Part shown: one piece after another, positions 831-48,674 of the stretch | Position numbering within the stretch: position 1 is the stretch's first letter | Layout of the letters: each line of letters begins with the position of its first letter | From: a virus | Virus record (IMG/VR): IMGVR_UViG_3300045996_001342 | Span: 1-48,674 of that record | DNA length: 48,674 nucleotides | Direction: 5' to 3' (one strand) | Notes under the pieces: model-generated | The model's input: only the letters and a program-made list of their open reading frames with translations | What the model was told of the DNA's origin: nothing | Databases searched by the model: none | Made by a program: the position numbers and the translations under genes

Positions 831-860
831 ATATTATCGTATGTCGTTGTATTCTGTCAA
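831..860 (-). promoter_or_regulatory. sigma70-type promoter for HTH operon
   Basis: On the minus strand TTGACA (860-855) is followed after 16-17 nt by GATAAT/ATAATA (838-832). This gives a start about 55 nt before the HTH start codon. The interval carries GTATGTCGTT-type sequence, repeated in inverted form at about 965-980 (AACGACATAC), which suggests an operator. Confidence 0.65.
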
Positions 861-3844: not shown

Positions 3845-4062
3845 CCCTCCTCCTCCCCTCCCCCCAGCCGCTCCGAGCCCGCTTCCTGCAGCCGCATCAG
3901 GGCTTGGTCGCTCAGGGTGTCCTGTGGTTTCTTGCGCGACTTACGCGGCTTGGTTGATGCGCTCACCGCAATCATGGGACTTCCACAGAAGGGACAAAAC
4001 GGCTGCATGTGACTGTCTGTTTCTTCGCGATGCCCACAACCTACACATTTAATCTGAATCAT
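3841..4062 (-). CDS. zinc-ribbon protein
   Basis: A 73-residue protein starting at 4062, next to the GGAGGGGG ribosome site. CVGCGH and CPFCGS form a four-cysteine zinc ribbon (about residues 6-27), followed by a basic linker (KPRKSRKK) and an acidic C-terminus. Small zinc ribbons of this kind are common in phage operons and usually bind nucleic acid or proteins; no partner is evident. It overlaps the coiled-coil gene upstream by 4 nt. Confidence 0.6.
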   Translation of the reverse strand: MIQIKCVGCGHREETDSHMQPFCPFCGSPMIAVSASTKPRKSRKKPQDTLSDQALMRLQEAGSERLGGGEEEG

Positions 4063-4733
4063 GCCCCCTCCTCCGGCGTGACCTGCCGCGTGGCGAGCGC
4101 ATGTTGAGCGACCAGCGCCGCTTCTTGGCATGGTCCGCAACATGTATTCTTTGCGATACTTTCCAGCGCGGCCCGCAGCGTTTGAAGTTCGGCCAATGCA
4201 GCTTTGAGCTGGAGGGTATGCGTCGGTTGCTTGAACCCAGCTTCCTCTAGCGACACCATCATCGTCTCTAGGATCGTCTGGCTATCGTCCCGCTCCTGCC
4301 GCAGCGTGGTCAGCTCGGCCCGCATATCGGCTACATCTTCAACGACCCCACGCCTTGGGCCTTCGCCGACTATGCCAGTGGCCGCTGCGTGCATACTTGC
4401 CACGGTCATACAGGCTCGATCATAATTGCCCTGTGCCTCTTTTAGCTCCTGCCGCAGCGTGGTCAGCTCGGCCTGTAACACCGTAATGTGATCGAAACGC
4501 TGATTCGCCACAGTAGACAGTTCGTTTAATTGCCTGTTCAAGTTATCGACTTCTGCTCGATGCTTCTGCACCCACCACGCTTGATTATCCGCTACTTCCT
4601 TCTGCATCTGTTCCATCTTTTTCGCGTGATCCCGCTCCCCCCGCGCCGCCTCCAGCTGCGCCGTCAGGTCGGCCACTTGTTTGCGTAGGTCTCCAATCAC
4701 TTCGAGCAAGCCGTCAGAATCATACCGTTCCAT
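4059..4733 (-). CDS. coiled-coil protein
   Basis: A 224-residue, almost wholly helical protein. Long heptad stretches cover about residues 8-105 and 135-205, with two near-copies of the segment AELTTLRQE, suggesting an internal duplication. A CCGPC motif lies near the C-terminus. There are no enzyme motifs. It is the largest gene of the CTAG-poor cassette. A scaffold or adaptor role is possible but not shown. Confidence 0.6.
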   Translation of the reverse strand: MERYDSDGLLEVIGDLRKQVADLTAQLEAARGERDHAKKMEQMQKEVADNQAWWVQKHRAEVDNLNRQLNELSTVANQRFDHITVLQAELTTLRQELKEAQGNYDRACMTVASMHAAATGIVGEGPRRGVVEDVADMRAELTTLRQERDDSQTILETMMVSLEEAGFKQPTHTLQLKAALAELQTLRAALESIAKNTCCGPCQEAALVAQHALATRQVTPEEGA

Positions 4734-9608: not shown

Positions 9609-9779
9609 CTATTTGGAGTTGGAAAGTAGGGCTAGGAGTCGTGCGGCTGTGGGGTCAATGGGGTGTATACTCTGTTCCCACTTAGCTACCGTGCTAGGAA
9701 CTACGCCTAGGACCTTAGCAAGCTCGGCCTGCGTCAATCCTAGGCGCTTCCTGATGTCTTTTAATTCAGATGGAGACAC
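9609..9779 (-). CDS. XRE-type HTH regulator, 56 aa
   Basis: A GTG start at 9779 that overlaps the TAG of the upstream gene by one base (TAGTG). The whole protein is a helix-turn-helix: IRKRLGLTQAELAKVLGVV then PSTVAKWEQ, followed by one more helix ARLLALL. This is the Cro/CI or HigA-antitoxin class of DNA-binding domain. It lacks any dimerisation or cleavage domain, so it resembles Cro more than CI. The two-gene unit is driven by a promoter that contains a perfect 17-bp palindrome (10087-10103), a likely target. Its partner gene upstream has no toxin motif that I can see. Confidence 0.75.
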   Translation of the reverse strand: MSPSELKDIRKRLGLTQAELAKVLGVVPSTVAKWEQSIHPIDPTAARLLALLSNSK

Positions 9780-10080: not shown

Positions 10081-10110
10081 ACTATACTATGCGTGACGCA
10101 TAGCTGTCAA
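10081..10110 (-). promoter_or_regulatory. promoter with 17-bp operator for XRE unit
   Basis: Minus-strand TTGACA (10110-10105), 18 nt, TATAGT (10086-10081). The spacer is filled by the perfect palindrome CTATGCGTGACGCATAG (10087-10103, 8-1-8), so a bound regulator would shut the promoter. Confidence 0.75.
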
Positions 10111-10112
10111 TA

Positions 10113-10217
10113 GAAAAATAGGCTATAAAAAAATATATTTTCAAAACAGCGACCTAAAACCCGAGCTGGCGTGTATAATAGATGTAGGCGGGGGTACTCT
10201 TATTAGCTATGCATATA
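10113..10217 (+). promoter_or_regulatory. late promoter region, copy 1 of repeated control element
   Basis: Blocks shared with 47739-47862 in the same order: AAAAATAGGCT, ATATATTTT, CGACCTAAA (10150-10158), GTGTATAATA (10171-10180), then GCGGGGG and an exact 23-nt block (10195-10217). CGACCTAAA and TATAAT start 24 nt apart in both copies, which places CGACCTAAA at the -35 position. It faces the packaging and structural operon. It does not match the TTGACA seen at the early promoters. Confidence 0.75.
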
Positions 10218-10346
10218 CTAGGGTGTCTACTTTTCACAGCCTAGCATAGTCCCCTCCGAATCCCCTCCCTCCCTCTTAATCCATCTTAATCCAGTTAGCC
10301 ATTGTAGCCCCTAGCTAGCCTAGCTCAACCTAGCCTAGCCCTTACT

Positions 10347-10907
10347 ATGAAACCAAGTAAGCTATCTAAAGCTTTGTCCATTGCAGGCCAAGACCTAACC
10401 ACTAGCAAGCCTAGTAGCCTAATTGAGCGCATCCCGACAGCTAAGCGCATCCGGACGGCTAAGCTACCTGACCGGGCTGAGCATAGTAAGCAAAGCCTTG
10501 ATAAACATGGTGGATCTCTTCGCTATAAGGCTGCGTATGCCGCTGACTTGCTAGCTGAAGACATAATCAGCGTCTTTCGACGGTCAGGCAAAAAGGACAA
10601 AGAGTACTTGAAGGGCCTAGTGTGGTCTTTCGGCGTACTATTCGACAAAGCCACTGGGGGGCAAAGTACTGATGCTGTTACAGTGCGTATCCCCGCGAAA
10701 CTGCTAGAGAATGTCAGTGCTGTCATAGCGATACAGGTAGGTAAGCACGCCGCGAAGCCCCAGGCAGAACAGGTACCTCAAGACGCAGTGTCTTGTGCAG
10801 GCGTAATAGAATCAACAGGTTATACTGAGGTAGTAGCACCTGAAGTAGCACCTACTGCGACTCAGGCCCCATCCGAGCTAGACCTAGACACTACAGCTAG
10901 CAGCTAG
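10347..10907 (+). CDS. hypothetical, possible small terminase or DNA-binding protein
   Basis: A 186-residue protein, first gene after the late promoter. The N-terminus is lysine-rich (residues 1-50), the middle helical (KAAYAADLLAEDIISVFRRS, then LKGLVWSFGVLFDKATGG), and the C-terminal 45 residues look disordered and acidic. Position before the large terminase suggests a small terminase, but tRNA-like genes lie between and no HTH is clear. There is no Shine-Dalgarno sequence before the ATG, only repeated CCTAG units, so translation may start unusually or need activation. Confidence 0.55.
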   Translation: MKPSKLSKALSIAGQDLTTSKPSSLIERIPTAKRIRTAKLPDRAEHSKQSLDKHGGSLRYKAAYAADLLAEDIISVFRRSGKKDKEYLKGLVWSFGVLFDKATGGQSTDAVTVRIPAKLLENVSAVIAIQVGKHAAKPQAEQVPQDAVSCAGVIESTGYTEVVAPEVAPTATQAPSELDLDTTASS

Positions 10908-11157: not shown

Positions 11158-11232
11158 AGCGGGAGTAGCAACGGTGAGCTGCCCAGTCTCATAAGCTGGC
11201 GCGAGAGGGTTCAATTCCCTCACCCGCTACCA
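11158..11232 (+). tRNA. tRNA with anticodon CAT (Met)
   Basis: 75 nt including an encoded CCA. Acceptor AGCGGG/CCCGCT (A7-A66 unpaired), D-arm AGC...GCT with GG in the loop, anticodon stem CCAGT/GCTGG with loop CTCATAA, T-arm GAGGG-TTCAATT-CCCTC. CAT reads AUG, or AUA if the C is modified to lysidine as in Ile2 tRNAs; the sequence alone does not decide. It lies between two less regular tRNA-like sequences upstream of the terminase. Confidence 0.8.
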
Positions 11233-34783: not shown

Positions 34784-35363
34784 ATTTAAGGATGTTGTCG
34801 TACTCGTCCCACGGCCTCGCGTTGCTGAAATCAGCTTGCGCGTCTGCCCCGCTAAAGTCTTCTTCTACATCGCCTAAAGGTGCGGTCTCTATGGCCGGGG
34901 GATGGCTGTTGTCGTGAACCTTAAAGTCCTGCTGGTGGTCCTGGATCGTATAATGCTTCGGGTCCTTGTCTGCGTACTTAGCCTTTAGAGCTGCGACCGC
35001 AGGGGTCCAGGCGTCTACCAGGGCAAGGTACCCGCCCCCCTTGTACTCCCGGTCGTCGGTAATGTTGCCCAGGACTGAGGCATCGGCTAAGACGGCCGCA
35101 CAGCTTAAAATTTTCGCTAGGTGCGGCAAGCCTGACTCGGGGTCAATGTCTTCACCGGCCTTATAGGCGTTAATATGCCGCTCTAGGGCATCGGTATACA
35201 CGGAGACTCGAATGCCTTTCTCCCTGAAGTTCAGTCGGCCATACTTCAGCATACCCTCAAGCATCCCCAAAGCCCCTAGGAACGTCGCCGTCGTAGGCCA
35301 CACATGGAACGGGATCTTATTACCGGCTACTAAGTCTTTAGGATTCGTGTCTTTCTGTTCCAC
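34773..35363 (-). CDS. dATP/dGTP diphosphohydrolase N-terminal-like protein (DUF5664 type)
   Basis: A GTG start at 35363; 196 residues. The conserved block is evident: NPKDLVAGNKIPFHVWP, then GMLKYGRLNFREKG, RHINAYKAGEDIDPESGLPH and HLAKILSCAAVL. This family (often annotated dATP/dGTP diphosphohydrolase N-terminal) occurs in phages that manage dNTP pools. The C-terminal 60 residues are variable and acidic. A purine-pool role is inferred from the family name only. Confidence 0.7.
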   Translation of the reverse strand: MEQKDTNPKDLVAGNKIPFHVWPTTATFLGALGMLEGMLKYGRLNFREKGIRVSVYTDALERHINAYKAGEDIDPESGLPHLAKILSCAAVLADASVLGNITDDREYKGGGYLALVDAWTPAVAALKAKYADKDPKHYTIQDHQQDFKVHDNSHPPAIETAPLGDVEEDFSGADAQADFSNARPWDEYDNILKFPG

Positions 35364-35928
35364 TAATCGCCTCCAAGTACTCGTTTACAGTATATATTCT
35401 TGTGACATCGCTCGCTAGCAGCTCAGTACTGACCCTGTTATACGGCCGGTCCAGGAGATAGCTCTTGGTTTCGCCATCGGTCAGCCACGCGACCATACTA
35501 GCGTTGCTCGGCTTATCCTCGATACACCAGCCCGCGCCCACCGCCTTAGCAAACTCGCCCTTGCGTTTCGTCGTAATGACTGTCGGTCTCATTACACCCT
35601 GCTTCATAAGCCAGCCTTCCGTCTCTATCTTCGCGGAGTCCGGCCTAGCGGTCACAAAGTACACAGGTATGTTAGACGTAAACCCGTAGATACAGCTAAA
35701 CGTGTCCTCGTCCACCAAGGGGGGCAAATCGAACCAGAAGCTACTAAGCCCGTCTATGGTACACCACACTTCATTAACCTGCTTCTTCGTCAAACCTTCC
35801 CAGTGGTACGTCGCCTGATCGACGCTCCGCGACACCGGGAAATCAGGGAACATCAAGCTAGCTAGGGCCGTAAATCCCGCCGTGAAATCCGCTAGGACTC
35901 CATCCACATCAAATATAACCGGCTTCAT
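35338..35928 (-). CDS. HAD-family phosphatase / 5'-nucleotidase-like
   Basis: A 196-residue protein starting at 35928 (GGGAG upstream). HAD motifs in order: VIFDVDGVLADF (catalytic Asp at 7 and 9), VYFVTARPDS (motif II), a lysine in TTKRKGEFA, and WCIEDKPSNA (motif IV). It resembles phage phosphatase domains such as the 3'-phosphatase part of T4 Pnkp and deoxyribonucleotidases. It lies two genes from an RNA ligase, so RNA-end healing is one reading; nucleotide dephosphorylation is the other. The overlapping frame upstream to 35997 is rejected. Confidence 0.75.
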   Translation of the reverse strand: MKPVIFDVDGVLADFTAGFTALASLMFPDFPVSRSVDQATYHWEGLTKKQVNEVWCTIDGLSSFWFDLPPLVDEDTFSCIYGFTSNIPVYFVTARPDSAKIETEGWLMKQGVMRPTVITTKRKGEFAKAVGAGWCIEDKPSNASMVAWLTDGETKSYLLDRPYNRVSTELLASDVTRIYTVNEYLEAISGTERHES

Positions 35929-36038
35929 TCGTCCTGCTCCCTTTCCAGTTCTTCTTCCTCGCAAGCCCGGCACAGGTTGCCCCAGCCGCCTTGGCACTTA
36001 GGGCAGAGGAAGAAAAACACGACTCCTGCGTCAAACAT
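35925..36038 (-). CDS. 37-aa zinc-knuckle peptide
   Basis: ATG at 36038, TGA at 35925, overlapping its neighbours by 8 nt upstream and 4 nt downstream. CPKCQGGWGNLCRACEEEE holds two CxxC knuckles and ends in a run of glutamates. Small but well packed in the operon. Unknown role. Confidence 0.5.
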   Translation of the reverse strand: MFDAGVVFFFLCPKCQGGWGNLCRACEEEELEREQDE

Positions 36039-36246
36039 CTAGTTCCTCCGGCAATTTTAGCTCGTACCAATCAGGAACATGCTCGTCTACTTCAGCAACA
36101 AACACTCTGCCGTATGAGGTTAAAGCGTGTAGCACCGGCTTATCGGCTCTAGTGCCCGGCAGCATGCATAGCTGCACGATCTTTTCTTTCGCTGGCACCC
36201 CAGCCCAAGCGTCCCAAGTGCCCCCCGGATTCGTTGTAGGCGTCAT
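36031..36246 (-). CDS. hypothetical protein
   Basis: A 71-residue protein with beta-type pattern (KEKIVQLCMLPGTRADKPVL, then GRVFVAEVDEHVPDWYELK). Preceded by the intergenic hairpin and GAGGGACGG. Not recognised, though similar short proteins with the ending WYEL are frequent in phages. Confidence 0.55.
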   Translation of the reverse strand: MTPTTNPGGTWDAWAGVPAKEKIVQLCMLPGTRADKPVLHALTSYGRVFVAEVDEHVPDWYELKLPEELDV

Positions 36247-36264
36247 TAGTGGTAATCCGTCCCT

Positions 36265-36277
36265 CGGCCAAAGGCCG
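36265..36277 (-). repeat. intergenic hairpin CGGCC-loop-GGCCG, copy 2
   Basis: CGGCC-TTT-GGCCG followed by AGGGACGG before the downstream gene. About 20 nt are identical to the copy at 37812-37824. Confidence 0.6.
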
Positions 36278-36282
36278 TTTAG

Positions 36283-37371
36283 TTAGTGAAAATCTGTGCC
36301 GTCCTGCTTCACCTGTAGCAGCTCGTAGTCTTCGTTAATTATCTTGACAACCTGGCCCGCCACACTGCCCCGGCAGACGACGCCTTCCCGGACCTTTTGA
36401 CTTGGGCTAAGAACAGATGCACCACGCGCAAGTTGCATAACGGACTCGGGCACGTATGGTCCTTCAAACAGCATTGGCGCTGTAGGGAGACCAAGGCCCT
36501 CCGCTGCTCGTCGGAAATCCGCTTGTGGAAGCTCGACGCCATCGACTTCAATATCGAAAAGGACAAGTTTGTGCTCTCCTGCTTCGCACCCATAGCTATA
36601 TCCTTTCTGGATTCCGTCTCCGTAGACTTCCCCGTAGACCACTGTGCCAAACGGCAATGCGCGAAGCCCGTACTTCTCTACCGTCCGGGCATAGACATTA
36701 GAATCATAGAACCCATCCCAGCTACGTTTGTCCTGTAGCTGCACCCTCCGCGATCCATACACGAACTCGTAGAGTGGCGCATAGCAGAACCACGCTTTGG
36801 CCTTCTGCCATAGCGTCCGAGGGACGTACTCGACCCAGCCCGCCCGAAAGTTCGTGCCGTGTATCTTCTCAGTCACCGTCACTAGATCGCCTTCTTTGAA
36901 CGCATGCGGAATATTCTTTAATCTAGGAATATCCCGGTACTCATGGAAATGCGGGTTCAAGTCGCGCTTTTTCACTTGTCTACCGACAAAGCACACTGCC
37001 TCGGAGGGCTCGTATTTCACGACGCCAAGGGCCTCAGTCAGTACCGCCCCCGGCATACCCGAAATCTCTCTAGGTGCCAGTCCAACGCCATCTAGGCTAG
37101 CTAGCAAGCCCTGGCTCACCACGCCGCGGATCTTGCATGTCCGGATACGGCCGTTCTTCGGCTTAATCTTCGAGTCCGAAAACAACAGCTCTTCCAACGC
37201 AGGCGGCAGAACTGAGTCAATCGGGAAAAAGACAGCCAGGTCGTGCTTCTTAAACTGCCCTTTAGCGACCACAATATTCCAGCCACGTACTCGCGCTAAG
37301 TCGAGCCGGTCAGCCCCAGGATGCGGGGCTACGTCGTCAATCAGAACAACTTCTACTGCAAAGTCGCTCAT
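36283..37371 (-). CDS. RNA ligase, DRB0094/Rnl5-like
   Basis: A 362-residue ligase. The N-terminal 1-150 is the OB/tRNA-binding-like module of the Deinococcus-type ligase. The nucleotidyltransferase domain begins at motif I TEKIHGTNFR, with Lys169 the expected AMP acceptor, close to the position in the Deinococcus enzyme. Motif IIIa-type segment is GTVVYGEVYGDGI; motif IV is REGVVCRGS and motif V is VVKIINEDYEL. It would seal 3'-OH/5'-phosphate RNA breaks, probably nicks in duplexes. A HAD phosphatase lies downstream and a tRNA about 1.5 kb upstream in operon order. Function in RNA repair is inferred. Confidence 0.85.
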   Translation of the reverse strand: MSDFAVEVVLIDDVAPHPGADRLDLARVRGWNIVVAKGQFKKHDLAVFFPIDSVLPPALEELLFSDSKIKPKNGRIRTCKIRGVVSQGLLASLDGVGLAPREISGMPGAVLTEALGVVKYEPSEAVCFVGRQVKKRDLNPHFHEYRDIPRLKNIPHAFKEGDLVTVTEKIHGTNFRAGWVEYVPRTLWQKAKAWFCYAPLYEFVYGSRRVQLQDKRSWDGFYDSNVYARTVEKYGLRALPFGTVVYGEVYGDGIQKGYSYGCEAGEHKLVLFDIEVDGVELPQADFRRAAEGLGLPTAPMLFEGPYVPESVMQLARGASVLSPSQKVREGVVCRGSVAGQVVKIINEDYELLQVKQDGTDFH

Positions 37372-37801: not shown

Positions 37802-37811
37802 ACGTCCTCCT

Positions 37812-37824
37812 CGGCCAAAGGCCG
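37812..37824 (-). repeat. intergenic hairpin CGGCC-loop-GGCCG, copy 3
   Basis: CGGCC-TTT-GGCCG directly joined to AGGAGG on the minus strand. It could hold or expose the ribosome site of the following gene. Confidence 0.6.
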
Positions 37825-37825
37825 T

Positions 37826-38053
37826 TTATTGCCAATAGAAATTTTCTAGTTGGGTAAACATGTGCGCGTCTTCCTCGATAAGCACTGGGAGCACAGGCGT
37901 CCTATTCTCCTTAGTGCAATGCAGCCACAGCTTAAACCTGGTTACAAAGTTAGCTCGTAGCGCGTTCCGGTCCCGCTCAGTCTTTCTTAAATCTGCTTCT
38001 AGGCTGGCTACCTGTGCCTTCAACGACCGGACTTGCTTTTGTAGATCCTTCAC
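37826..38053 (-). CDS. coiled-coil protein
   Basis: A GTG start; 75 residues. Heptad-rich first 33 residues (LQKQVRSLKAQVASLEADLR) then a globular end (LWLHCTKENRTPVLPVLIEE). It overlaps the 3' end of the MazG gene by 77 nt, a long overlap for this operon. Confidence 0.5.
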   Translation of the reverse strand: MKDLQKQVRSLKAQVASLEADLRKTERDRNALRANFVTRFKLWLHCTKENRTPVLPVLIEEDAHMFTQLENFYWQ

Positions 38054-38858: not shown

Positions 38859-38934
38859 TGGTACCGGCGGTAGGAGTCGAACCTACACTCGCATGGTTCT
38901 AAGCCATGTGCCTCTGCCATTGGGCTACGCCGGT
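38859..38934 (-). tRNA. tRNA with anticodon TAG (Leu, CUA), short variable loop
   Basis: 76 nt with encoded CCA. Acceptor ACCGGCG/CGCCGGT, discriminator A, D-arm GCC...GGC, anticodon arm CATGG-CTTAGAA-CCATG (anticodon at 38901-38899), variable loop CGAGT, T-arm GTAGG-TTCGACT-CCTAC. TAG reads the leucine codon CUA. Bacterial leucine tRNAs normally have a long variable arm; this one has only 5 nt, so its charging is an open question. CTA is a frequent leucine codon in this genome. It sits at the very start of the transcript from the promoter at 38942-38971. Confidence 0.88.
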
Positions 38935-44486: not shown

Positions 44487-46922
44487 TTAGCCCTCCATAC
44501 CCCAGTGTGGGCCTAGCTTCGTGTCTACCTTGAGGGGGGCAGAAAACCCAGGTAGCAGCCCTTTCAATGTCTTCGCGCTTTCCATGCACTCTTTAATCAA
44601 ACGCACTGCAAAGTCACGCCTACGATCCGGCATGTCGAACACTAGGTTATCGTGTACCTCGTTCGTAATTAGTGGCATCAGGGGCCAATCCTTACGCATT
44701 AGCCGGTCATGGTACTCGACTAGGCTTATATCGTACTCCGCACAAAAAGCCGCCTCGCAATCTAGCAACGCAGATCCGGTCACAGCCGCCGCAAGGCTCT
44801 GAATCGGAAAGTTAATCGCTTGGTTCACAAGCCGCCCAAAGCCTGGCGTATCTGGTCCGTCGTGTGGCAAATGCCGAACTTGTCCGATCTTACTAACGAC
44901 GTAGCCATGATCCAGCAGGTACTGTTTTTGCCGGGCCATGTACCGAGGTATCCCAGGAAACATCCGCAGATAGCCCCGCCGTAATTCGTCGGTTTTCTCT
45001 ACGTGGTCTTCATAGTTATGGCTAAACCGGACGCCTACCTTGTTCCAAAGAGTCTCGGCCATCAATTTAGTCTGCATATTGTAATTCGTGCCCAAAACTA
45101 CGCTTTTAGTAGCTACGTATTCTCTCGTACCCTTTGTGACCTCCATTTTCCATAGCTCTTTCGCTATGGCAATGTACCCCCCACGATTCAGGAAGTAGTC
45201 TATGAGCTTATCGTCCTTGGCCTCGTAGCCCAGGATAAATATTTCCAGGCTTTTGTAGTCGTTCTCTAGAATCAGGCCGTTAGGGAACCTAGATACGACG
45301 AGCTGCCGCATCTTCCCAGGCCAGTTCTGCATATTCGGCTCGGAACTCGACCGCCTGCCTGTCCTAGCCCCCAGGGGGTTAATATTGACCGGCAACCACA
45401 GCCTGCCGTCTGGCTGCGCTTGTACGAGGTCTTTGACCCCCAGGATATTCGTCGTATAGGCTTTGTCGGCCTTATTGAACTCTAAAAGCGTCTTAACTTC
45501 CGGACGCTCTGCGAACTGCTTCAAGGTAATCTGGTCAACCGCCGGGAGCTTGCTAGTCTTCGTCTTCTTCGTAACCGGCAGCTTCAGCCGCTTAAATAGA
45601 AGGTCTCTGATATGCCCGTCGTTCGTCGGTATAAACTCCGTCATGCCTTGGCTAAAGGCTAGCTTTGTAAGCTTGTCTCGCGCCCGCTCTCTGTCGAACA
45701 AAAGAACCAGCTCCATGTCGCTCAGCTTCTTTCGGTCGATATACACCCCGGCATGTCTCACACGATGCAACGACATTGCGATCCGGTGAACGAAATTCCA
45801 CGGCATCTTCTGGACTTCATCGTCAATAACTAGCTCTGTCGCAAGCCTCGCACTAGCCCAGGCGTCTAGGCGACAGCGTTCTTTCCTGAGATCACGGCCC
45901 CACAGCGTTGCGTCTTCCTTGCTTATGGCTACCGTGTCCTGCTTCCAGGGTTCGACGTTGCGATCACTGACTAGGAGCCCTTCGAGATCGTAGCCCCCCT
46001 TGCCGCGGTTCTCGTCTTTCATTCGAGCCAGCAACAGGCTATCTAACGTCATGTACCCGGAGACCCAGTCTATCCTTGCCGCACCTAGCTCTACTAGCTT
46101 GTCTATGTCGCCGCTTATAGAATGCCCTATGAGCTTCGTCTTGTTGTCAGCCTGCTCGACCTGAGACAGCACAGCATAAAAGCTATCTTCGTCTGGCTCC
46201 GCGCTAGTCGCTGACTGCCTGTCTGCTATACCCACCGTCAGTAGCGTCTTATCGGGGGCATACTCTGTGTCTATGGCGATAAACCCGGCGTCAGGGTAGC
46301 CATTGACTGGCCTAGGCAGTAACGGCTTACTCGCTCGCTCGAAGTCTTCTTTGATCCTCGGAAGATAGCTAGACCCCCCTAGCAGGACCGCCCTAGGGGC
46401 ATATGTGGCCCAGGCTTGTTTCTCCGTTCCCGCGATCCGTAGAGGCCGACCGCGCATCTTCGTTATATTCGTAGCCTTGCCATCGTTCGATAATGACCGG
46501 GCCGCGCTCGGCCCCATAGCGATGATCTGTTGCGGGTTCAAGCCAGTGACCGTTCTAGCTACGAACGGACGGCAGCAACGAATCTGGTTCATACTTGGTT
46601 CGTCTTCGACCGGACACCGAACGGCATACGTCAGAGCTACGTCCTGAACCGAATACCCCGCTTCCCTCGTGACCTGCCTCAAAAGTTGCCGCTCGTCGCT
46701 ATTAGGGGCCGAACCTAGAACAACTAGCAGCTTCCCGGTATACCCGCCAGGGACGTAAGGCCGCTGAATCGTCGGAGAAAACAAGCCGCACTTTTTGCAG
46801 AGGTCCCGCTGTTCTCCAGCCTCGGACATCGTCTCCGGCGTCAGAGCTTGGACAGCCAAGCTAGGGGCCTTGGGCTTTTTAGGCTTCTTTGCCTTTGGCT
46901 CGGCTGTGGCTTCAACTTCCAA
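44487..46922 (-). CDS. DNA polymerase I with N-terminal UDG-like domain
   Basis: An 811-residue replicative polymerase from a TTG start (AGGAGG upstream, inside the TOPRIM gene's 3' end). Residues about 36-200 resemble an Fe-S uracil-DNA glycosylase: CKKC (42-45) and Cys103, Cys117. The catalytic GEAPG motif is changed to LGSAPNSDE, so activity is doubtful. The 3'-5' exonuclease covers about 210-400 (AIDTEY at 217-221, IGHSISGDID). Polymerase covers about 430-811: motif A NDYKSLE (Asp555), motif B KSVVLGTNYN, QAINFPIQS, and motif C EVHDNL (His757, Asp758), where Asn replaces the usual Glu. It would copy the phage genome. Confidence 0.88.
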   Translation of the reverse strand: MEVEATAEPKAKKPKKPKAPSLAVQALTPETMSEAGEQRDLCKKCGLFSPTIQRPYVPGGYTGKLLVVLGSAPNSDERQLLRQVTREAGYSVQDVALTYAVRCPVEDEPSMNQIRCCRPFVARTVTGLNPQQIIAMGPSAARSLSNDGKATNITKMRGRPLRIAGTEKQAWATYAPRAVLLGGSSYLPRIKEDFERASKPLLPRPVNGYPDAGFIAIDTEYAPDKTLLTVGIADRQSATSAEPDEDSFYAVLSQVEQADNKTKLIGHSISGDIDKLVELGAARIDWVSGYMTLDSLLLARMKDENRGKGGYDLEGLLVSDRNVEPWKQDTVAISKEDATLWGRDLRKERCRLDAWASARLATELVIDDEVQKMPWNFVHRIAMSLHRVRHAGVYIDRKKLSDMELVLLFDRERARDKLTKLAFSQGMTEFIPTNDGHIRDLLFKRLKLPVTKKTKTSKLPAVDQITLKQFAERPEVKTLLEFNKADKAYTTNILGVKDLVQAQPDGRLWLPVNINPLGARTGRRSSSEPNMQNWPGKMRQLVVSRFPNGLILENDYKSLEIFILGYEAKDDKLIDYFLNRGGYIAIAKELWKMEVTKGTREYVATKSVVLGTNYNMQTKLMAETLWNKVGVRFSHNYEDHVEKTDELRRGYLRMFPGIPRYMARQKQYLLDHGYVVSKIGQVRHLPHDGPDTPGFGRLVNQAINFPIQSLAAAVTGSALLDCEAAFCAEYDISLVEYHDRLMRKDWPLMPLITNEVHDNLVFDMPDRRRDFAVRLIKECMESAKTLKGLLPGFSAPLKVDTKLGPHWGMEG

Positions 46923-47535
46923 GTAACTGCCTCCTAGCTAGCTCTGGCATCCTGCTAAGGTCTTTGGCCCCGACTGGGAATACGAGCCGCGCTCTGGCAC
47001 CTAGCAGGGCTAACCGCCCGACCGTTACGGCTCCGGCTCTGATAGCGTCTGTGTCAGGGACTACGGTAATCGGCTGCCCCGGAAACTGGTTCAAGACGTT
47101 CTGCAACAGATTCGCTCCGGGCCTGTTGCCCATCGCTGCGACTCCAGCGTAGCCGCACTCTGCCGCTGCCAGTGCGTCCATCGGGCCTTCTACTAAGACG
47201 ACCCCCCTAGGCGCGGCTTCAGGCCACACAAGGACAAATGCGCCTTCGGCCGAATACGGGGGGCTTTGGTACCGCTTCTCTACCTTCGGGTCCACGGCCC
47301 TAGCTTGCCAATAGACCCGCCCGTTGCTATGGCTGCACGGAATCACAATCCGCACATGGTCGTCCTCCGCCGATTTCGACTGGTACCAGCCGTTAGCTAT
47401 GGCTAACTCTGCGCTAAGCCCCCTGTCGCCAAGGTATTGCATCAGAAGGTACAGAGAGTCCCACCGCTCCGGCATCGGCTGGCTAGGCGCGTACTTCCTG
47501 CGGGGCTTCGATCCTTCGTGTTCGTAATTTTTCAA
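46912..47535 (-). CDS. TOPRIM primase-like protein
   Basis: A 207-residue protein from a TTG start with GGAGGC upstream. TOPRIM motifs: VLVEGPMDAL (Glu116, Gly117, Asp120) and VVPDTDAIRAG (Asp161, Asp163), the metal site of primases. Before them (about 45-100) is a beta-rich part (HVRIVIPCSHSNGRVYWQAR) like the RNA-polymerase domain of phage primases. No zinc-binding domain and no helicase domain are fused, unlike T7 gp4. Zinc recognition or helicase may be supplied by neighbours. Confidence 0.8.
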   Translation of the reverse strand: MKNYEHEGSKPRRKYAPSQPMPERWDSLYLLMQYLGDRGLSAELAIANGWYQSKSAEDDHVRIVIPCSHSNGRVYWQARAVDPKVEKRYQSPPYSAEGAFVLVWPEAAPRGVVLVEGPMDALAAAECGYAGVAAMGNRPGANLLQNVLNQFPGQPITVVPDTDAIRAGAVTVGRLALLGARARLVFPVGAKDLSRMPELARRQLLGS

Positions 47536-47677: not shown

Positions 47678-47720
47678 TCTTTGACCTCACGTTATATTGT
47701 ATTCTATCGCGTTACATAAT

Positions 47721-47750
47721 ATTATACACGCCAGGCAAAAAAATAGGCTG
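47721..47750 (-). promoter_or_regulatory. replication-operon promoter of the same class
   Basis: Minus-strand CAGCCTATTT at the -35 position and GTGTATAATA at -10: CCTA and TATAAT are 21 nt apart, exactly as in the two plus-strand copies (10153/10174 and 47797/47818). It faces the coiled-coil, TOPRIM and polymerase genes. Confidence 0.5.
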
Positions 47751-47862
47751 GGTATTCTCAGATATATTTTTTTCACTTGAGTCCATGTTTGCCCGACCTA
47801 AATTCCCTTCTGACGTGTATAATAAGCGTAAGCGGGGGGTACTCTTATTAGCTATGCATATA
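47739..47862 (+). promoter_or_regulatory. copy 2 of the late-type control element
   Basis: Shares the same ordered blocks as 10113-10217: AAAAATAGGCT, ATATATTTT, CGACCTAAA (47794-47802), GTGTATAATA (47815-47824), and the exact 23-nt block 47840-47862. It points towards the 3' end of the sigma-like gene, which is on the other strand. A GGGGGT/ACCCCC stem and TTTTT follow at 47835-47879, so a short RNA could be made and ended there. Confidence 0.75.
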
Positions 47863-47877
47863 ACCCCCTCCCTGTTT

Positions 47878-48456
47878 TTATCCGTCTTCCCTCTCTAGAT
47901 AGTCACGCATAGATTCTAGCCCGGTTGCTAAAGCTCTCTTCACCTTGCCTCTGTCAACCCCTAGCTTATCGGCGTACTCATAGGTGCTATAGCCTTCGAC
48001 ATGCACTGCTAGGACGACTTCGCGTTGAAACGCTGGCAGAGCCAGCAACGCCGACTTGAGATCAATACCCGAGTCTAGATCCGGCATGTATGCAGCTTCG
48101 CTCTTTTCCTTATCTAGCCCTAGCTTGCGCTGCGCCCGCTTTACGTCCGGCGCTTGCTCGACTGTGTCATCAAAGCCCTCCGGCTGCGCTTCTAGTCGTT
48201 GCCGGTTCAGGTAGTCACGAATGGCATTCGACGCCCGGCGGTCTACCTGCTCTGTGATCCACGTATTAAGCTGCGCCTGGCTAGGGTCGTACCGCTCTAA
48301 TGCGGCATAGCAGTCTGCCAGGGCTTGCTGGACTACGTCTTCAGGATCGCCGCAGTCCCGCACCATGCCCGCAGCCCTCCGGACCAGGAGGGGGCGAAGC
48401 TCGGATACGACGGTCGCAAATTCCACATCAGACGGACTAGAAACTAGACTTGTCAT
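47878..48456 (-). CDS. sigma-70-family (ECF-like) factor, copy 2
   Basis: A 192-residue protein with a sigma region 2 (about 18-88: DPEDVVQQALADCYAALERY, then LNTWITEQVDRRASNAIRDY) and a region 4 HTH (about 132-190: LLALPAFQREVVLAVHVEGY, then STYEYADKLGVDRGKVKRAL). This is the two-domain plan of ECF sigma factors, which would redirect host RNA polymerase to phage promoters. Start at 48456 with AAGGAGGT at ideal spacing; the extension to 48507 is rejected. It overlaps the small gene before it by 20 nt. An identical arrangement begins the window. Confidence 0.75.
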   Translation of the reverse strand: MTSLVSSPSDVEFATVVSELRPLLVRRAAGMVRDCGDPEDVVQQALADCYAALERYDPSQAQLNTWITEQVDRRASNAIRDYLNRQRLEAQPEGFDDTVEQAPDVKRAQRKLGLDKEKSEAAYMPDLDSGIDLKSALLALPAFQREVVLAVHVEGYSTYEYADKLGVDRGKVKRALATGLESMRDYLEREDG

Positions 48457-48674
48457 AGGCAACCTCCTTTTCCGGAGTCGAGCATAGCTTAATAATAATA
48501 GACCCATCAGAGACTCCGTAGGCGATTCGTGAGAACTCTTTGCAGACCCGCGCCATTTCGTCCTTGTCTACCGTAAGCTGGCCCCCAAGCTTGTTAAGCA
48601 GGTAGACATTCAAAACAGTGGCCCCCTCTAGCGCTTCCACTAACTGCTCATTCTGCAAAGCAAGCCTAAACTCT
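48101..48674. repeat. right copy of imperfect terminal repeat
   Basis: The partner of 1-577. The last base of the window pairs with base 577 of the left copy. Details and differences are given there. Confidence 0.9.
48437..48674 (-). CDS. small hypothetical protein, copy 2 (5' end cut by window)
   Basis: About 79 residues are visible; by comparison with the left copy only the first three residues are missing. The N-terminal 45 residues are identical to copy 1. The stretch ARVCKEFSRIAYGVSDGSII differs from copy 1, and the end TPEKEVAYDKSSF is nearly the same. It precedes and overlaps the sigma-like gene. Confidence 0.7.
   Translation of the reverse strand, partial: EFRLALQNEQLVEALEGATVLNVYLLNKLGGQLTVDKDEMARVCKEFSRIAYGVSDGSIIIKLCSTPEKEVAYDKSSF

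Follow-up and report, generated by a model that had tools for sequence, protein, structure and literature searches.

Gene Layout of the Phage Record

The stretch of DNA analyzed here (the window) is the whole of a 48,674-base virus record that carries an integrase gene and comes from a phage seen solely as environmental DNA. The structural cluster lies on the plus strand, from position 10347, and the replication cluster lies on the minus strand. The following genes are central to the analysis:

10347-10907, plus strand: first open reading frame behind the putative late promoter, 186 aa, without a family match, upstream of the terminase, portal and capsid genes
44487-46922, minus strand: DNA polymerase of the A family, in the operon behind the third putative promoter
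46912-47535, minus strand: primase-like TOPRIM protein, in the same operon
47878-48507, minus strand: ECF-type sigma factor with profile matches to regions 2 and 4; translation probably begins at 48456, which gives 192 aa

The open reading frame at 10347, the first of the late operon, has no visible Shine-Dalgarno sequence, unlike several other genes checked. Elsewhere in the record, 35338-37371 encodes an RNA ligase (phrog_968) together with a protein whose match to polynucleotide kinase is weak. A repeat of about 20 nt with the hairpin CGGCC-AAA-GGCCG occupies two gaps between minus-strand genes (36262-36281 and 37809-37828), and an exact 29-nt direct repeat (4292-4320 and 4445-4473) lies within the open reading frame 4059-4733. 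The record also has a tRNA-Leu at 38859 and, with a low score, a tRNA-Met at 11158.

The contig ends (1-577 and 48101-48674) were shown by self-BLAST to overlap over 577 nt. With an identity of 90.6%, this overlap suggests that the record is either a near-complete circular map whose join shows strain variation or a sequence with tandem sigma genes. Identical stretches alternate with diverged ones along the overlap, and the sigma gene region is present at both ends. Between its two versions, the sigma gene shows 14 synonymous and 6 non-synonymous codon differences and one indel.

The minus strand has TTGACA-type (host-type) sites at 860, 10110 and 38971, which precede genes of that strand. Promoter scans of the record found about as many promoter-like sites as in shuffled sequence, and single TTGACA-type sites are thus weak evidence. 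Two of them are relevant here:

831-860, minus strand: predicted host-type TTGACA promoter, upstream of small genes; on a circular contig these would lead up to the sigma gene
10081-10110, minus strand: predicted leftward promoter, TTGACA-N18-TATAGT, with the inverted repeat CTATGCG-N3-CGCATAG between the hexamers

The inverted repeat of the leftward promoter spans 10087-10103 (CTATGCG-TCA-CGCATAG). An XRE-like HTH protein, read by eye, is apparently encoded nearby on the minus strand (about 9612-9779).

A Repeated Promoter-Like Motif with Fixed Spacing

Apart from the contig-end overlap, the strongest self-match of the record in self-BLAST pairs 10150-10217 with 47794-47862 (84% identity over 69 nt, E 6.5e-13). 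The pair contains two copies of a promoter-like motif, and a third site lies close to the second copy on the opposite strand:

10150-10158, plus strand: putative -35-like element CGACCTAAA of the late promoter, with an exact copy at 47794-47802 at identical spacing to TATAAT
10166-10180, plus strand: putative -10 region CTGGCGTGTATAATA of the late promoter, with TATAAT at 10174-10179; CTGRCGTGTATAATA occurs in three copies in the record
47794-47802, plus strand: putative -35-like element CGACCTAAA of copy 2, an exact match to the late-promoter element
47810-47824, plus strand: putative -10 region CTGACGTGTATAATA of copy 2, with TATAAT at 47818-47823, oriented so as to enter the sigma gene from its 3' end
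47720-47750, minus strand: third putative promoter, CAGCCTATT-N15-TATAAT inside CTGGCGTGTATAATA, facing the primase and DNA polymerase genes and without the downstream block described below

An earlier sequence-only reading of this DNA had described two control regions sharing several blocks, with CGACCTAAA and TATAAT equally spaced in both, and a minus-strand relative with CCTA and TATAAT 21 nt apart. These descriptions hold. The distance from CGACCTAAA to TATAAT is 24 nt, start to start, in both plus-strand copies. At the third site, CCTA occupies 47747-47744 and TATAAT 47726-47721; CCTA is all that its -35 has in common with the other two copies. From CCTA to TATAAT, the distance is 21 nt, start to start, at all three sites. 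The wider control-region alignment scores 87, compared with 30.5 for the best of 1000 shuffles, and the region upstream of CGACCTAAA alone outscores 1000 of 1000 shuffles. The sequence CGTGTATAAT occurs exactly three times in the record, each time with CCTA 21 nt upstream; in 60 dinucleotide shuffles, its mean count was 0.02 and its maximum 1.

None of these sites has a TTGACA-like -35 at a spacing of 16-18 nt. Instead, GACCTA is found at 17-nt spacing from a -10 that is a perfect TATAAT, and host-type promoter scans of the record did not report the three sites. The motif is present in few, strongly conserved copies: the spacing is fixed at all three sites, one at the head of the structural cluster, one at the head of the replication cluster and one antisense into the sigma gene.

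Relatives of these control regions were sought in other phages. The sequence-only reading had proposed CGACCTAAA-N15-TATAAT as a search pattern; it returned 31 matches in IMG/VR, none with CGTG before TATAAT. A stricter motif pattern found no match in IMG/VR. Searches by sigma factor, polymerase, portal and terminase found no relative with these control regions; the relatives retrieved do not extend over them. The structural genes have relatives in L034, L039 and L040 and weaker ones in L035-L037, and a 7 kb fragment (L033) carries an identical portal gene. L039, whose terminase is 79% identical, starts too far downstream, by about 400 nt, to include the position of the late promoter. Only distant polymerase relatives were found; for the polymerase scan, an invented second row holding motif blocks only was added to the alignment to steer the choice of peptide patterns.

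Apparent Duplication of a Divergent Control Region

The similarity between the two plus-strand copies extends upstream of the promoter-like motif:

10114-10141, plus strand: AT-rich upstream blocks AAAAATAGGC and ATATATTTT, also in copy 2
47739-47770, plus strand: AT-rich upstream blocks of copy 2, from the alignment with copy 1

In both copies, AAAAATAGGC is extended by T and reads AGCCTATTTTT on the minus strand. In copy 2, the leftward promoter has AGCCTATTTTT as its -35 region; in copy 1, AGCCTATTTTT lies upstream of the leftward TTGACA promoter. Since AAAAATAGGC/AGCCTATTTTT is shared on the leftward arm, the two copies seem to stem from duplication of an entire divergent control region, and copy 1 seems to have lost its leftward -10 or had it replaced, as judged from the two sequences. 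Could the likeness reflect only a recent neutral duplication without conserved shared function? Both regions are divergent and have blocks common to both arms, as such an event would produce. However, motifs and downstream block are the same in both copies, the differences falling mainly in the -35/-10 spacer and in the gap between the -10 and the block, and the third site retains the -10 motif without the remainder. A neutral duplication is therefore considered very improbable.

An Identical Block Downstream of the Motif

The longest identical stretch of the repeat follows TATAAT and is presumed to lie within the first transcribed bases:

10190-10217, plus strand: 28-nt block GGGGGTACTCTTATTAGCTATGCATATA, identical to 47835-47862
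47835-47862, plus strand: 28-nt block GGGGGTACTCTTATTAGCTATGCATATA of copy 2, identical to 10190-10217

The block had been recognized as identical in the sequence-only reading but was given as 23 nt. It begins 10 or 11 nt past TATAAT, depending on the copy, and the exact 28-nt sequence has no match in IMG/VR. An ATG within the block opens short frames at 10208-10240 (11 codons, MHILGCLLFTA) and 47853-47897 (14 codons, MHITPSLFLSVFPL), which by eye have no good ribosome site. A small RNA ending at the C-tract behind copy 2 was considered and rejected, as its fold was no better than that of shuffles.

The duplicated unit could be mainly regulatory, with the block acting as an operator or as an RNA leader (antitermination, stability) behind ordinary promoters. 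This would account for the block being the longest identical part of the repeat and for the palindrome TATGCATA inside it, and CTATGC is common to the block and the inverted repeat of the leftward promoter. Against this, CTATGC is frequent (44 copies in the record), neither leader has a significant fold relative to shuffles (z -0.49 and -1.65), and the minus-strand promoter keeps the motif without the block. We regard such a mainly regulatory role as improbable.

The Phage Sigma Factor

The gene next to copy 2 had been called sigma-like, and profile searches bear this out. The protein scores above the cut-offs for sigma region 2 (Pfam PF04542, 37.7 bits, cut-off 24), region 4_2 (PF08281, 32.5 bits, cut-off 25.7) and the NCBIfam ECF superfamily (TIGR02937, 68.1 bits, cut-off 42.9), and its PDB matches are ECF sigma factors. 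The likely start is an ATG at 48456 behind GGAGG. The protein matches phrog_1740 (E 7e-21), which is also the best PHROG match for gp36 of phiEco32 and gp47 of phage 7-11. Pfam finds region 4 in the protein of this record (P0002) and in 7-11 gp47, and not in phiEco32 gp36. Pairwise alignment of the sigma to gp36 and gp47 showed negligible similarity; the proteins are too distant for sequence alignment, and promoter specificity is thus not transferable.

The orientation of the gene bears on what copy 2 can do. The copies had been placed at the late operon and beside the sigma gene, and these positions are correct, but the plus-strand promoter of copy 2 faces the 3' end of the sigma gene and thus does not drive it. 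The operon near the sigma gene that is headed by such a site is the primase/polymerase operon, behind the minus-strand third copy and not the plus-strand one. Between copy 2 and the contig end, the plus strand yielded no candidate gene other than a 17-codon frame, whose ribosome site is weak.

A Candidate Phage-Specific Promoter Class

The sequence shows a repeated motif at fixed spacing, the location of each copy and the family of the sigma factor, and from these we infer the promoter identity of the three sites, their reader, their timing and an antisense role. The three sites probably form a phage-specific promoter class read by host core RNA polymerase with the phage ECF-type sigma. In the best reading, they would be the middle and late promoters of this sigma. 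The host sigma would read the minus-strand TTGACA-type promoters, including one ahead of a small operon whose last gene is that of the sigma. If the record ends join, this operon would begin from the 860 site. The phage sigma would then read the minus-strand site 47750-47720 into the replication genes and the site 10150-10180 into the late structural operon. Recognition may be bipartite, with region 4 contacting the CCTA -35 and region 2 contacting the CGTGTATAATA -10; the presence of both regions in the sigma is consistent with a bipartite motif. At the plus-strand site 47794-47824, the phage sigma would produce RNA antisense to its own gene, possibly a feedback brake. Antisense control by this promoter is the simplest guess. 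A fuller version, in which the sigma reads a host-type TATAAT with a private -35, the 28-nt block is a functional initial transcribed sequence (RNA or operator) and antisense RNA from one plus-strand copy shuts off the sigma gene late, is speculative and unlikely as a whole.

A dedicated class read by the phage factor was also the proposal of the sequence-only reading. The sequence, the positions and an ECF sigma of the gp36/gp47 PHROG fit it, but the perfect TATAAT leaves room for a host sigma with an activator. A perfect host-type -10 is not known to be typical of ECF sigma factors and counts against the phage sigma as reader. The absence of a relative with these control regions from the search results and the third -35, which has only CCTA in common with the others, also count against it. 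Instead, the host housekeeping sigma could read TATAAT while a phage activator binds CGACCTAAA in place of a -35, as MotA does on T4 middle promoters. These promoters resemble the sites here in combining a consensus TATAAT with a private -35 region. TATAAT is perfect at three of three sites, the -35 is unlike TTGACA and the upstream regions are AT-rich, all of which speak for this reading. T4 uses the host sigma with MotA/AsiA, however, and no such activator gene was identified in the record. A phage sigma is present, and sigmas of the same PHROG have been reported on dedicated promoters. An activator acting with the host sigma is unlikely, and reading by the phage sigma is preferred.

Comparison with Known Phage Sigma Factors

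Promoters of phage-encoded sigma factors have been described as occurring in few, strongly conserved copies (PMC4331800). In phage 7-11, gp47 has C-terminal homology to region 4 and recognizes a bipartite element, GTAAtg-(16)-aCTA, upstream of late genes, whereas phiEco32 gp36, without region 4 homology, recognizes the single element tAATGTAtA; the difference has been attributed to region 4 (PMC8948821). For 7-11, a prediction from motifs only (TGATGT...TATA; PMC4331800) disagrees with the consensus later obtained by primer extension (PMC8948821), and a repeated motif is thus no proof of a promoter.

The present phage resembles 7-11 in the phrog_1740 match, in similarity to sigma regions 2 and 4, in bipartite promoters, putative here, before late genes and in host-type early promoters, here predicted. 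It differs in the consensus (CCTA-N17-TATAAT here), in the number of promoters (eight in 7-11 and three putative ones here) and in sigma proteins without detectable pairwise similarity. With phiEco32, it has in common the phrog_1740 match and promoters, putative in the present phage, at middle and late genes. The predicted layout is also like that of phiEco32-like phages, with host-sigma promoters on the functional strand and phage-sigma promoters at middle and late genes. The sites here have neither the phiEco32 nor the 7-11 consensus (per PMC8948821); TGTATA is shared by CGTGTATAATA and the phiEco32 element only, which may be chance. In phiEco32, promoters have a single element and region 4 homology is lacking (PMC8948821).

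Two peculiarities of the present system lend themselves to direct tests: the invariant block past the putative start and the putative antisense promoter directed at the sigma gene. If the preferred reading is true, this phage redirects host RNA polymerase to its own genes, as a few known phages do. The experimentally studied sigma relatives cited here come from phiEco32-like phages, and phiEco32 is a lytic podophage, whereas the record described here carries an integrase gene and would provide a candidate sigma/promoter pair from an uncultured phage group.
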